Source: Oharaeibacter diazotrophicus
Lineage (GTDB): Bacteria > Pseudomonadota > Alphaproteobacteria > Rhizobiales > Pleomorphomonadaceae
NCBI RefSeq assembly: GCF_004362745.1
Contig: NZ_SNXY01000006.1
Location: forward strand, 124,001 to 188,000
DNA: 64,000 nucleotides
Direction: 5' to 3'
Part shown: positions 47,410-54,691 of the stretch, piece after piece
How positions within the stretch are numbered: the stretch's first letter is position 1
Layout of the letters: every line of letters begins with the position of its first letter
The notes under the pieces: generated by a model
The model's input: only the letters and a program-made list of their open reading frames with translations
The model's database searches: none
Told to the model about the DNA's origin: nothing
Position numbers and translations under genes: made by a program

Positions 47410-48222
47410 TCACGCCACCGACGGGGATTCCCTGTGCCGGTCGGCGGCCGTGACCTCGGCCACCACCAGCGTCACGCCCGCGGCCTCGACCATCCGCCGC
47501 GCCTCGTCGGTGACGCCGTCGTCCGTGACGATCACGGAGACGCGGTCGAGGGGGCAGAGGATCAGGCTGGAACGGTTCTCGAACTTCGACGAGTCGACCA
47601 GCAGGATCGTCTCGTCGGCTTGGCGCATCAGTCGCTGCTCGGATTGGCTGATCAGGCTGTCCTGCTCCATGATGCCCGCCTTCGAGACGCCGCGGGCGCT
47701 CATGAACATGCGCCGGCCGTAGAAGTGGGCGATGCCGTCGTTGTCGAACGGCGACACGATCACGCCCTGCTCGCGGTAGACCGCGCCGGCCGGCAGGATC
47801 ACCGAGCACTTGGAGTGCTTCACCAGATACTCGGCGATCGGGAACGAGTTGGTCAGCACCTGCATCCGGAGATGGGCGACGTGGTGCACCATCTGGAAGG
47901 TGGTGGTGCCGGCGTTGATGATGACGGCGTCGCCGTCGGCGCAGTACTTGGCCGCCTCGCGCGCCACCGCCCGCTTCTCGGCGGTGCGGACCGTCTCGTC
48001 GACACGGAACGGGCGCGCCGACAACGTACCGAACTGCGGCGGATGCACCGCCTCGGCACCGCCGCGCACCTTGCGCACCCGCCCCTGCAGCGCCAGAGCC
48101 GCGATGTCGCGCCGGATCGTCGCCTCGGACGCGCCGGTCAGCTCGACGATGTCGGGCACCGTCGCGACCGGGCGTTCCTGCACGGCGGCGAGGATGATGC
48201 GGTGGCGTTCACGTTCGTGCAT
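47410..48222 (-). CDS. rhaR: DeoR-family regulator of rhamnose catabolism (RhaR)
   Basis: The 270-residue regulator has a DeoR helix-turn-helix (residues about 8-60; VPDIVELTGASEATIRRDIAAL) and the sensor domain (INAGTTTFQMVHH, LTNSFPIAEYL, VDSSKFENRSSLI). It is the negative regulator of the locus in Rhizobium. It heads the minus-strand operon and is divergent to rhaD; repeated GATTGACA-type sites cover both promoters between them. The name denotes the Rhizobium gene, unrelated to enteric RhaR. Confidence 0.87.
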   Translation of the reverse strand: MHERERHRIILAAVQERPVATVPDIVELTGASEATIRRDIAALALQGRVRKVRGGAEAVHPPQFGTLSARPFRVDETVRTAEKRAVAREAAKYCADGDAVIINAGTTTFQMVHHVAHLRMQVLTNSFPIAEYLVKHSKCSVILPAGAVYREQGVIVSPFDNDGIAHFYGRRMFMSARGVSKAGIMEQDSLISQSEQRLMRQADETILLVDSSKFENRSSLILCPLDRVSVIVTDDGVTDEARRMVEAAGVTLVVAEVTAADRHRESPSVA

Positions 48223-48242: not shown

Positions 48243-48361
48243 ATCAAAACGATTGAAACGACCGGTGTCAATCAGATTCGATCATGACTGGTCATTGTGC
48301 GCTGCAATATGATCGAAAATGATTGGAAGCGATTGACAGTCGCCGGGCCGGTCTGGGATAT
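48243..48361. promoter_or_regulatory. Divergent rhaR and rhaD promoters with GATTGACA-type operators
   Basis: For rhaD: TTGACA (48333-48338), 17 bases, GGATAT (48356-48361). For rhaR on the minus strand: TTGACA (48271..48266), 17 bases, TTTGAT (48248..48243). Both -35 boxes are inside the octamer GATTGACA. Related octamers lie at 48251 (GATTGAAA), 48311 (GATCGAAA), 48321 (GATTGGAA) and 48331 (GATTGACA); the last three are spaced by exactly 10 bases. This is a strong candidate for the RhaR binding array. The region is richer in A+T than its surroundings. Confidence 0.7.
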
Positions 48362-48440: not shown

Positions 48441-50534
<2,094 letters not shown>

Positions 50535-52433: not shown

Positions 52434-53219
52434 TCAGCCCTCCGCCGGCGTCAGGAACATCGCGAACAGGGCGGCCTGGCTGGAGACTGCGAGCTTCTGG
52501 TAGATGTTCTTGCGGTGGATCTTCACCGTGCCCTCGGCGATGCGCAGGCGGGTCGCGATCGATCGGGTGGAGTGACCTTTCAGGATCAGCCAGGTGATCT
52601 CGGCCTCGCGCGGGGTGAGGATGCCGCGGGTGCGGCGGGCGATGGTCTCGCCGACGGCGTCGCGGCCGAGGGCCGACGGCGTCGTGCCCGGGGCGGCGGG
52701 GCGGGTCCAGTGGCGCTCGGCGAGGGCGCGGACGACCGGGTGGGCGGCGCGGATGGCGACGAGGTCCTGGCGGCCGAAGGCCGGGGCGGTGCCGGGCCGG
52801 GTCAGGCTGACCACCACGCCGGTCCAGCCGACCGGGCGGACGACGTGGCCGACCTCGTCGCGGATGCCGGTCCGCACGTAGTGTCGGCGCCAGTATTCGG
52901 AATTGTGGAACTGGTCGGGCGCCATGTCGCGCAGCCGGCGCACGCCCTCGACCTGCGGGTCGGTCGCGGCGGTGTAGAACGGGTCGAGCACGTAGGGGCC
53001 GGCGGCGTAGGCGTGGATCACGGTGGCGGCGCGGGTCTCGTCCATGTTGTGGTGCAGGCAGACCGGCGTCGCCGCGCCGGCGTAGGCGAACACCATCAGG
53101 ATGTCGAAGTCGACCAGCGTCGCCATCGCCGCCTCGAGCCGGCGCGGAAAGGCGGGCGTGCCGACCGCCTCGACCGCCGCCGCCACCGCCGTGTTCCACG
53201 CCGCGAAACCACGCTCCAC
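52434..53219 (-). CDS. LuxR-family transcriptional regulator
   Basis: The 261-residue protein has an N-terminal sensor domain (about 1-185; FDILMVFAYAGAATPVCLHHN, YAAGPYVLDPFYTAA, EVGHVVRPVGWTGVV), which is not a classical homoserine-lactone domain. A LuxR/GerE DNA-binding domain follows (about 195-255; LTPREAEITWLILKGHSTRSIATRLRIAEGTVKIHRKNIYQKL). It diverges from the ligase/importer operon and probably controls it. This type of LuxR gene next to amine-using operons is common in alphaproteobacteria, to my knowledge, and the ligand is likely an amine-related compound. Confidence 0.85.
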   Translation of the reverse strand: MERGFAAWNTAVAAAVEAVGTPAFPRRLEAAMATLVDFDILMVFAYAGAATPVCLHHNMDETRAATVIHAYAAGPYVLDPFYTAATDPQVEGVRRLRDMAPDQFHNSEYWRRHYVRTGIRDEVGHVVRPVGWTGVVVSLTRPGTAPAFGRQDLVAIRAAHPVVRALAERHWTRPAAPGTTPSALGRDAVGETIARRTRGILTPREAEITWLILKGHSTRSIATRLRIAEGTVKIHRKNIYQKLAVSSQAALFAMFLTPAEG

Positions 53220-53338: not shown

Positions 53339-54691
53339 ATGAGCACCATGCCCGAGAACGCCTACGCCGAAGCCGACCTCGCCTCCAGGCTCGCCGCGAT
53401 CGGCGCCCGCACCGTCCACGTCGGCGTGGTCGACCCCGAGGGCGAGTTCCGCGACAAGCAGGTCTCGGCCGACAAGGCGCTGAAGCTCGGCGCCAAGGGC
53501 TATCCCTTCTGCGAGGTGCTCTACTTCTGGGACATCGCCGAGGCGACCTTCCGCGACGCCGCCTTCGTCGACCGTCCCGCGGCGCTGATGCCCGAGACCG
53601 TGCGCCGCTACCCCTTCGCCGACGACGCCGCCGTGGTGATCGCCGACTTCACCGGCGACTTCGGCCGCCGCTCGCCGCGCAACCTCTGCGCCCGCCTGAT
53701 CGCCGAGGCCGCCGACCTCGGCTTCGACGTGCTGTCGGCCTTCGAGTTCGAGTTCTTCCTGTTCGCCGAGACCGCCGAGACCATGCGCGCCAAGAACTGG
53801 CGCGACCTCTCCTTCTTCGCCCAGGGCAACCGGACCTATTCGCTGCAGACCGCCGCGCTGCACGGCGGGTTGATCGACGGCCTGGTCTCGACCATGGACA
53901 CGCTCGGCATCGCCCTCGACGCGGTCCACACCGAACTCGGGCCGGGCTGCCTCGAGGCGCCGCTGACCTACGCCGTCGGCATGAAGGCGCCCGACGACGC
54001 CGTGCTGTTCAAGAATTTCGCGCGGGCCTATTTCGCCCGCCAGGGCCTGACCGCCGGCTTCATGTCGAAGCTGTCGCCGTCGCTGTCCGGCCAGTCCGGC
54101 CATCTGCACGTCTCGCTGCGCGACCGCGCCGGCAACCCGGCCTTCGCCGATCCCGCGGCGCCCGACGGGCTCGGCCGAACCGCGCGCCACTTCGTCGGCG
54201 GCCTCGTGAAGCTGATGCCGGAGCTGCTGGTGCTGTGCGCCTCCACCGTCAACGCCTACAAGCGGCTGGTGCCGGGGGCGTGGGCGCCGACGGCGGCGAA
54301 CTGGGGCGTGCAGAACCGCACCGCCGCGGTCCGCGTCATCAACGACGAGCCGGCGGCGACGCGCGTCGAGTTCCGCGTGCCCTCGGCCGACACCAACCCC
54401 TACCTCGCCCTCGCGCTCTGCCTCGGCGCCGGCCTCCACGGCATCCGCAACGAGATCGAGCCGCCGCCGGGCAGCGCCGAGAACTTCTACGCCGCGACGC
54501 CGGCGCCGGAGGCCGTGTTCCCGCGCGACCTCGGCGCCGCCGCCGACCGGCTCGCGGCCAGTGCCGCCGCGCGCGCCATCTTCGGCGCCGACTTCGTCGA
54601 CGGCTACGTCGAGGGCCGGCGCGTCGAATACGACGCCTACCAGCGTCACGTCAGCGAATGGGAGCTCCGACGGTATCTCGGCATCGTCTGA
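53339..54691 (+). CDS. Glutamine-synthetase-family gamma-glutamyl-amine ligase
   Basis: The 450-residue enzyme joins glutamate to an amine. It has the GS beta-grasp N-terminus (VGVVDPEGEFRDKQV) and the catalytic domain with metal residues in FEFEFFLF, HTELGPGCLEAP, SGHLHVSL, and the ATP/ammonium region RLVPGAWAPTAANWG, NRTAAVRV. The length and the SGQSGHLHVSL form match gamma-glutamylpolyamine (PuuA), methylamide and isopropylamide ligases rather than housekeeping GlnA. No PuuB, PuuC or PuuD gene is in this window. The polyamine-type importer that follows suggests an imported amine as substrate. ATG 53339 and 53348 are both possible. Confidence 0.82.
   Translation: MSTMPENAYAEADLASRLAAIGARTVHVGVVDPEGEFRDKQVSADKALKLGAKGYPFCEVLYFWDIAEATFRDAAFVDRPAALMPETVRRYPFADDAAVVIADFTGDFGRRSPRNLCARLIAEAADLGFDVLSAFEFEFFLFAETAETMRAKNWRDLSFFAQGNRTYSLQTAALHGGLIDGLVSTMDTLGIALDAVHTELGPGCLEAPLTYAVGMKAPDDAVLFKNFARAYFARQGLTAGFMSKLSPSLSGQSGHLHVSLRDRAGNPAFADPAAPDGLGRTARHFVGGLVKLMPELLVLCASTVNAYKRLVPGAWAPTAANWGVQNRTAAVRVINDEPAATRVEFRVPSADTNPYLALALCLGAGLHGIRNEIEPPPGSAENFYAATPAPEAVFPRDLGAAADRLAASAAARAIFGADFVDGYVEGRRVEYDAYQRHVSEWELRRYLGIV

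Follow-up and report, generated by a model that had tools for sequence, protein, structure and literature searches.

The window, a stretch of 64,000 nucleotides from Oharaeibacter diazotrophicus, contains two divergent rhamnose genes: rhaR on the minus strand (47410–48222), which encodes a DeoR-family regulator of 270 amino acids with the Pfam domains HTH_DeoR and DeoRC, and rhaD on the plus strand (48441–50534), which encodes a bifunctional rhamnulose-1-phosphate aldolase/dehydrogenase (TIGR02632, 1101.5 bits against a cut-off of 567.75) and whose start we take at 48441, after GAGGAGG. Beyond these two genes the window holds rhaI and rhaS. The best NCBIfam model for the rhaR product is UlaR, but its score of 190.9 bits lies under the cut-off of 244 bits, and a PDB sequence search with RhaR found no matching chain at E 0.001. 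The gap between rhaR and rhaD measures 218 bp, and the octamer operator that it contains adjoins rha operons with a DeoR-family rhaR. Elsewhere in the window a LuxR/GerE-type regulator is encoded at 52434–53219 (minus strand), between rhaI and an open reading frame at 53339–54691 that we take, from the way it reads, to be a glutamine synthetase gene.

The putative operator is a dyad of 73 bp (48266–48338, axis at 48302) with two arms, inverted relative to each other, in which octamers follow at 10-bp steps with GATTGACA outermost in each. The initial annotation had described the arm that faces rhaD, on the plus strand, as GATCGAAA (48311–48318), GATTGGAA (48321–48328) and GATTGACA (48331–48338), beginning exactly 10 bases apart, and had placed TTGACA boxes with 17-base spacing within GATTGACA in opposite orientation at both promoters; all of these letters and positions are correct, the –35 box on this side being TTGACA at 48333–48338. 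The arm that faces rhaR, on the minus strand, starts with GATTGACA (48273→48266), which holds the second –35 box (TTGACA, 48271→48266), continues with GATCGAAT (48276–48283), which had been overlooked, and ends with a degenerate third octamer, GACCAGTC (48286–48293). The period of 10 in both arms agrees with the 10–11 bp period of the two imperfect direct repeats that PMC3870299 gives for rhizobial DeoR-type RhaR motifs.

Counted with the pattern GATYGRMA, the gap contains five octamers, two step-10 pairs and one triple, and each of these counts was reached in 0 of 5000 dinucleotide-preserving shuffles, odds that are somewhat overstated because the pattern was derived from these same octamers. 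The window has many single octamers (40 versus 14.9 in shuffles), but its step-10 pairs and its triple occur only in the gap. Genome-wide, there are two exact matches to GATYGRMA-NN-GATYGRMA, both in the gap, and five pairs with one mismatch, one of which is the minus-strand pair of the gap. In addition, 46 of the 73 positions of the dyad agree with its reverse complement, and none of 20,000 mononucleotide shuffles did as well. The octamers of the rhaR–rhaD gap are confirmed as real and beyond chance. A further octamer, GATTGAAA, lies at 48251–48258 (plus strand), within the spacer of the rhaR promoter and 60 bp (six steps) from 48311; we rejected it as a member of the array since it was not clearly kept in the few relatives compared by eye, and we take it to be a chance occurrence or part of the promoter spacer.

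In both directions TTGACA is followed, after a 17-base spacer, by a probable –10 box, which for rhaD is GGATAT (48356–48361, plus strand; CGATAT is the commonest form in relatives) and for rhaR is TTTGAT (48248→48243, minus strand), the latter fitting the start that we deduce for rhaR of S. meliloti. The –10 consensus of E. coli is TATAAT, and the two boxes match it poorly, at 2/6 and 4/6. Compared with the S. meliloti promoter consensus CTTGAC-N17-CTATAT, as quoted in PMC2573895, the rhaD –10 box matches at 4/6 but lies one base further off; on the rhaD side of 70 aligned rows, GCGATATC is mostly kept at the expected place. A promoter scan listed neither of the TTGACA promoters and gave a single match elsewhere, ATGACT-18-TATGAT at 48284–48313, which we rejected after judging it by eye to be unconserved against a few relatives. 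Table 3 of PMC12542648 lists a PhaR-like site in the S. meliloti rhaD–rhaR gap at distances of 90 to the rhaR ATG and 77 to the mapped start, so that rhaR would start 13 nt before its ATG, and the same table records the rhaD start as undetected. If the first base of the site is the reference point and the usual 41–46 nt separate box and ATG in S. meliloti, whose site lies outside the loci analysed here, the rhaR start would fall about 30 nt past GATTGACA, where a GATTGACA promoter predicts it. The rhaR promoter of S. meliloti is induced 10- to 38-fold by rhamnose according to PMC4254191.

The initial annotation had proposed a search for the same octamers in other rhizobial rha gaps. Among 80 named RhaR loci, 71 have a divergent rhaD, and in 69 of these 71, plus the window, we found both outer boxes, neither with more than one mismatch, when pairs were sought at 40–80 bp; start to start, the boxes are 65 bp apart in 67 rows and 66 bp in three. 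The remaining two loci, L010 and L084, each have one deviant box and spans of 72 and 73 bp. Across the 67 rows at 65 bp (window included), one arm matches the other at 0.659 in register and at no more than 0.364 at other shifts from –6 to 6. The inner octamers are conserved in register in the same rows: the second octamer of both arms is conserved, the third moderately on the rhaD-facing arm and weakly on the rhaR-facing arm, and the core of the first is near-invariant in both arms, in rows that had been chosen for this box. The other nine of the 80 loci (eight from Pleomorphomonas and L017) have another gene order in which rhaR does not adjoin a rhaD of this type, and in 9/9 of them a four-octamer step-10 array lies 2235–2279 bp before rhaR. 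Because the arrays precede rhaR in all of these rearranged loci, the array motif follows the operon of the regulator and not the rhaR–rhaD gap.

To follow the distance between the arms more widely, we used an order-wide set of 397 genomes, 85 of which have a RhaR ortholog (E 1e-75 or better). Fourteen genomes of genus g6 were set aside before the gaps were analysed; judged by coordinates, they include the Pleomorphomonas loci, and one of them, G010, corresponds to the divergent L010. The other 71 were included, the window's own gap being taken from the window. Searches at family and class level added further genomes (10 of 28, 90 of 136, 14 of 69, 4 of 11 and 3 of 289). The total was 160 upstream regions, 152 of them with a divergent rhaD and 138 with both boxes at one mismatch or fewer; of the 22 that were dropped, eight lack a divergent rhaD and 14 have a box with at least two mismatches. 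Boxes were picked by mismatches and nearness to the genes, with spacing ignored, and a filter set after the outliers were known, which kept rhaR-side boxes 40–60 nt from rhaR, left 136 gaps. The named and order-wide sets overlap by coordinates (L008 = G001, L009 = G002, L010 = G010), and their counts are not additive.

The outer boxes span 72–74 bp in 115 of the 136 gaps (72 in two, 73 in 108 and 74 in five), and the other spans are 52 (one gap), 62 (four), 63 (five), 83 (one), 94, 95, 103, 104 and 105 (one each), 125 (four) and 154 (one). When each family and length was counted once and 72–74 left out, there were 11 classes, which are not independent (five come from family f15 and four from f6). 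Ten of them, from 52 to 125 bp, lie within 1.5 bp of 73 + 10.45n, where chance would place about 3 in 10, and none of 20,000 random uniform sets matched the fit of the 11 classes even with the step optimised. We had first estimated the step of 10.45 by eye, on a subset of these data; the rule was written from 52, 83, 94, 104, 105 and 125, and the classes that came later (62, 63, 103 and the 95 of f92) all fall within 1.5 bp of it. The best step is 10.30 (cos-mean 0.88), and a line through the spans up to 130 has a slope of 10.43 per turn and an intercept of 72.96. Without the 40–60 nt filter there are 13 classes with a cos-mean of 0.83, which 0 of 4000 null sets equalled. Three spans lie off the ladder, namely 154 (G143, –2.6 bp), 54 (G350) and 85 (G811), the last two being excluded from the 11 classes by that post hoc filter. 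As a control, the distance from the rhaD-side box to rhaD has no such period (|R| 0.04 at 10.45); distances from the rhaR-side box to rhaR are clustered (|R| 0.39) and so are uninformative on period. Taken together, these measurements show that the distance between the arms is restricted to whole helical turns in 10 of the 11 classes away from 73 bp.

Some of the dropped regions also fit the ladder (73, 74, 72, 62, 84 and 95), and four f22 genomes stand at 75, 2 bp off; re-measured outside the statistics, G410 gives 73, G317 72, L010 72 and L084 73. The Pleomorphomonas-type arrays have spans of 240, 272, 282 and 292 bp, corresponding to 15.98, 19.04, 20.0 and 20.96 steps, and of 291 bp, corresponding to 20.86; these come from one clade, were measured after the step had been chosen and between arms above a low score, with none for L013, L014 and L016, and they support the ladder without proving it. 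Parsimony on a FastTree tree of 137 RhaD pieces gives 12 changes in turn number, a rough count because off-ladder rows are included and 25 of 134 inner branches are well supported. One genome (G424, contigs C1 and C8) carries two RhaR orthologs, with gaps of 73 bp and 63 bp.

Whole-turn spacing is what would be expected if RhaR on one arm had to touch RhaR on the other, and it suggests that a single RhaR assembly grips both promoters at once. We infer that RhaR binds the octamers here as an oligomer that bridges the arms. Specifically, 48266–48338 would serve both divergent operons, rhaR-rhaSTPQ and rhaD-rhaI, as a common operator, and the monomers of a RhaR oligomer, probably a tetramer like UlaR, would read the GATYGNNN / GATTGACA octamers. 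The octamers are 10 bp apart and therefore on one face of the helix; the first contains the –35 box, so that bound RhaR would exclude RNA polymerase from both promoters; and since the arms are inverted and whole turns apart, the RhaR units would face one side and could be bridged into one closed complex, which an inducer, L-rhamnulose in the case of Chloroflexus RhaR, may dissolve. Weighing the observed anatomy of the dyad, its conservation, the way in which it follows the regulator, the spacing rule and the joint presence and absence of PhaR and its site described below, we put the probability of this whole explanation, a shared two-arm RhaR operator with phase-locked, bridged arms, at roughly 55%.

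The initial annotation had proposed a repressor that, on a single array, would close both promoters at once. The closing of both promoters by a shared repressor site is well supported because the neighbouring regulator belongs to the DeoR family and because in R. leguminosarum RhaR is a negative regulator and fusions in both transcripts are rhamnose-induced (PMC9025865); the single array gives way to two opposed arms. Going beyond that proposal, the conservation of the gap suggests joint action of the two arms, held in a fixed rotational phase. Such contacts are classically tested by asking whether the effect varies cyclically as helical turns are added, as in the ara paper cited by PMC8053113. 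If the bridged reading is true, the relatives of this organism have run a natural spacer-insertion experiment about a dozen times, as counted by parsimony on a tree with weak support. Should the spacing rule hold, comparison of genomes has already performed the classical 5-versus-10-bp insertion test, and the short gap, in a harmless soil bacterium, offers a clean system for tests of bridging in which a second, metabolic regulator apparently uses the space between the arms.

The chief rival to bridged arms is that the arms are independent RhaR operators that make no contact and whose spacing arose by slippage of 10-bp repeat units. Slippage would favour multiples of 10, the arms being step-10 repeats, the 83-bp gap of G261 looks like one added octamer, and the cos-mean is still 0.72 at a step of 10.0. 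However, that step fits worse than the best one (0.72 versus 0.88) and places 8 of the 11 classes within 1.5 bp compared with 10 of 11 for 10.45, and where slippage predicts spans of 53, 63, 83, 93, 103 and 123, those seen are 52, 62/63, 83, 94/95, 103–105 and 125. Moreover, 7 of 9 f15 gaps have gained central palindromes and not octamers, and f6 keeps a span of 73 bp in 74 of 87 gaps although its centre (positions 29–63) has diverged to a mean pairwise identity of 0.44. We consider slippage unlikely on this evidence, if still a serious contender. The rhaR-facing second octamer is largely lost in f6, where positions 52–63 are little conserved, and perhaps a single octamer is therefore left for bridging on that arm.

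PhaR (AniA) is a regulator and senses PHB, a storage polymer. On the axis of the dyad lies a predicted PhaR palindrome, TCATTGTGCGCTGCAATATGA (48292–48312), which matches in full the 21-bp motif published for S. meliloti (PMC12542648; core YGCRNYGCR) and whose core, TGCGCTGCA, occupies 48298–48306; this is the only match to the motif in the window, where 0.05 were expected. PhaR binds the rhaD/rhaR gap of S. meliloti weakly in EMSA (PMC12542648), and PhaR of B. diazoefficiens has a similar consensus (PMC6201568). The window's genome (G000) encodes PhaR (PF07879, E 1.6e-30), and another full palindrome of this motif lies in it at G000:C6:574994–575014. A PhaR-like core is present in 46 of 138 gaps, against an average of 0.7 and never more than 3 in 200 shuffles. 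It occurs in all gaps of f1 (6/6), f15 (9/9), f23 (14/14), f28 (4/4), f41 (7/7) and f92 (1/1), in some of f22 (4/5) and f40 (1/3), and in none, among the 138, of f6 (0/87), f42 (0/1) and f44 (0/1).

The presence of the regulator follows a similar pattern: PF07879 was found in all 56 genomes tested outside f6 and in 0 of 24 tested within it, a co-absence of PhaR and core that counts as one evolutionary contrast and not many, and five genomes (G289, G161, G187, G380 and G101) have PhaR without the core. PhaR and the palindrome are thus missing together, whereas the spacing is not lost with them. Motif counts across whole genomes exceed the reversed control in three genomes that carry PhaR, G301 (28 to 8), G152 (43 to 24) and G396 (37 to 28), and show no enrichment in three f6 genomes (20 to 17, 12 to 17 and 10 to 14). 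The window's genome likewise shows none (11 versus 11), and we dropped motif counts as proof of a PhaR regulon there. A looser pattern exceeded its reversed control in 7 of 7 genomes tested, an excess that carries little weight because the near-palindrome is counted on both strands while the control is not palindromic.

These observations bear on the second rival to bridging by RhaR, that the phase is set by an agent other than RhaR, whether two back-to-back RNA polymerases, PhaR or a centre-bound bending protein. Of the 48 named rows with a PhaR-like core, 45 have it exactly on the axis and three have it half a base away, about 66 bp from each predicted start, and where cores are multiple, in f15 (two or three copies in 7 of 9 gaps) and f92, the copies are 20–32 bp apart, that is 1.9 to 3.1 turns and near whole turns, so a protein bound at the centre could matter in f15. 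Four f15 genomes (G115, G146, G237 and G287) have three cores, with distances of 31 bp (about three turns) and 21 bp (about two turns) between them, and their arms are separated by 52 bp (about five turns) more than those in the window. The paired cores of f22, however, are 18 bp (1.7 turns) apart, and f6, with PhaR in none of 24 genomes tested and the core in none of 87 gaps, nevertheless keeps 73 bp in 74 of 87 gaps, so that PhaR does not set the spacing there; f6 also rules out that the dyad is made by PhaR alone. A phase imposed from the centre thus seems to us improbable, slightly more so than slippage. That the octamers are merely strong –35 boxes with their flanks, the true RhaR site being elsewhere, is very improbable: the –35 boxes are the most conserved letters, but the second octamer, outside the –35 box, is kept in register in both arms (the third less so), the arrays follow RhaR-linked operons to other places, and the RhaR motif published for rhizobia likewise consists of direct repeats (PMC3870299).

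Returning to the bridged operator, a likely PhaR site between the arms in many lineages may tie rhamnose use to carbon status, and PhaR may have such an effect in this organism too. In its fullest form this picture treats the gap as a single closed switch that evolution has kept in rotational phase: the inverted arms are clamped by a RhaR oligomer, both promoters open and shut together, PhaR sits inside the clamp in many lineages and length changes only by whole turns. This form is tentative, and we would give it slightly less than even odds.

Much of the setting is already in print: the regulator, the divergent genes, the 10–11 bp direct repeats and the binding of PhaR to the gap. The Rhizobiales operators of DeoR-family RhaR (RegPrecise; Rodionova et al. 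2013, PMC3870299) share the regulator class, the divergent rhaR/rhaD and the 10–11 bp repeats with ours, but are described as a pair of direct repeats, whereas the window has two inverted arms of up to three repeats; unlike the operators in that paper's text description, it also has a turn-quantised distance between arms and –35 boxes within the outer repeats. The same paper reports EMSA data for Chloroflexus RhaR, which attaches to a fragment carrying four tandem TCGAAA sites and lets go of it in the presence of L-rhamnulose. The PhaR site of S. meliloti (PMC12542648) lies in the same gap and is of the same palindrome type; in our set, by contrast, it is placed on the dyad axis of the RhaR arms, several families have between one and three copies of it, and it is absent from f6, whose tested genomes lack PhaR.

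Within the wider family, UlaR of E. coli is, like RhaR, a DeoR-family repressor of divergent sugar operons, the ula regulon, and acts as a tetramer on four operators (PMC3219644), the text examined from that source making no mention of turn-quantised spacing across species. E. coli DeoR, of the family that bears its name, loops DNA and so joins separate operators (deoO1, O2 and OE; PMC8053113), but these are about 600 and 300 bp apart whereas the arms in the window are tens of bp apart. In the open-licence literature, apart from the figures of RhaR logos, we found no account of an inverted two-arm layout or of turn-quantised spacing, and little is known of how DeoR-family repressors recognise tandem repeats and connect separate sites.

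The rearranged loci (L011–L018 and L020) point to a further kind of change, in the region about 2–4 kb upstream of rhaR. In the Pleomorphomonas locus L012 the set of enzymes appears to have been swapped under the same regulator, with E. coli-type rhamnose isomerase and aldolase genes apparently in one operon with rhaR; reading its translations gene by gene, we take the genes that precede rhaR to be a LacI-type gene and this isomerase and aldolase. A second array in L012 faces a divergent gene, presumably encoding a rhamnose mutarotase.
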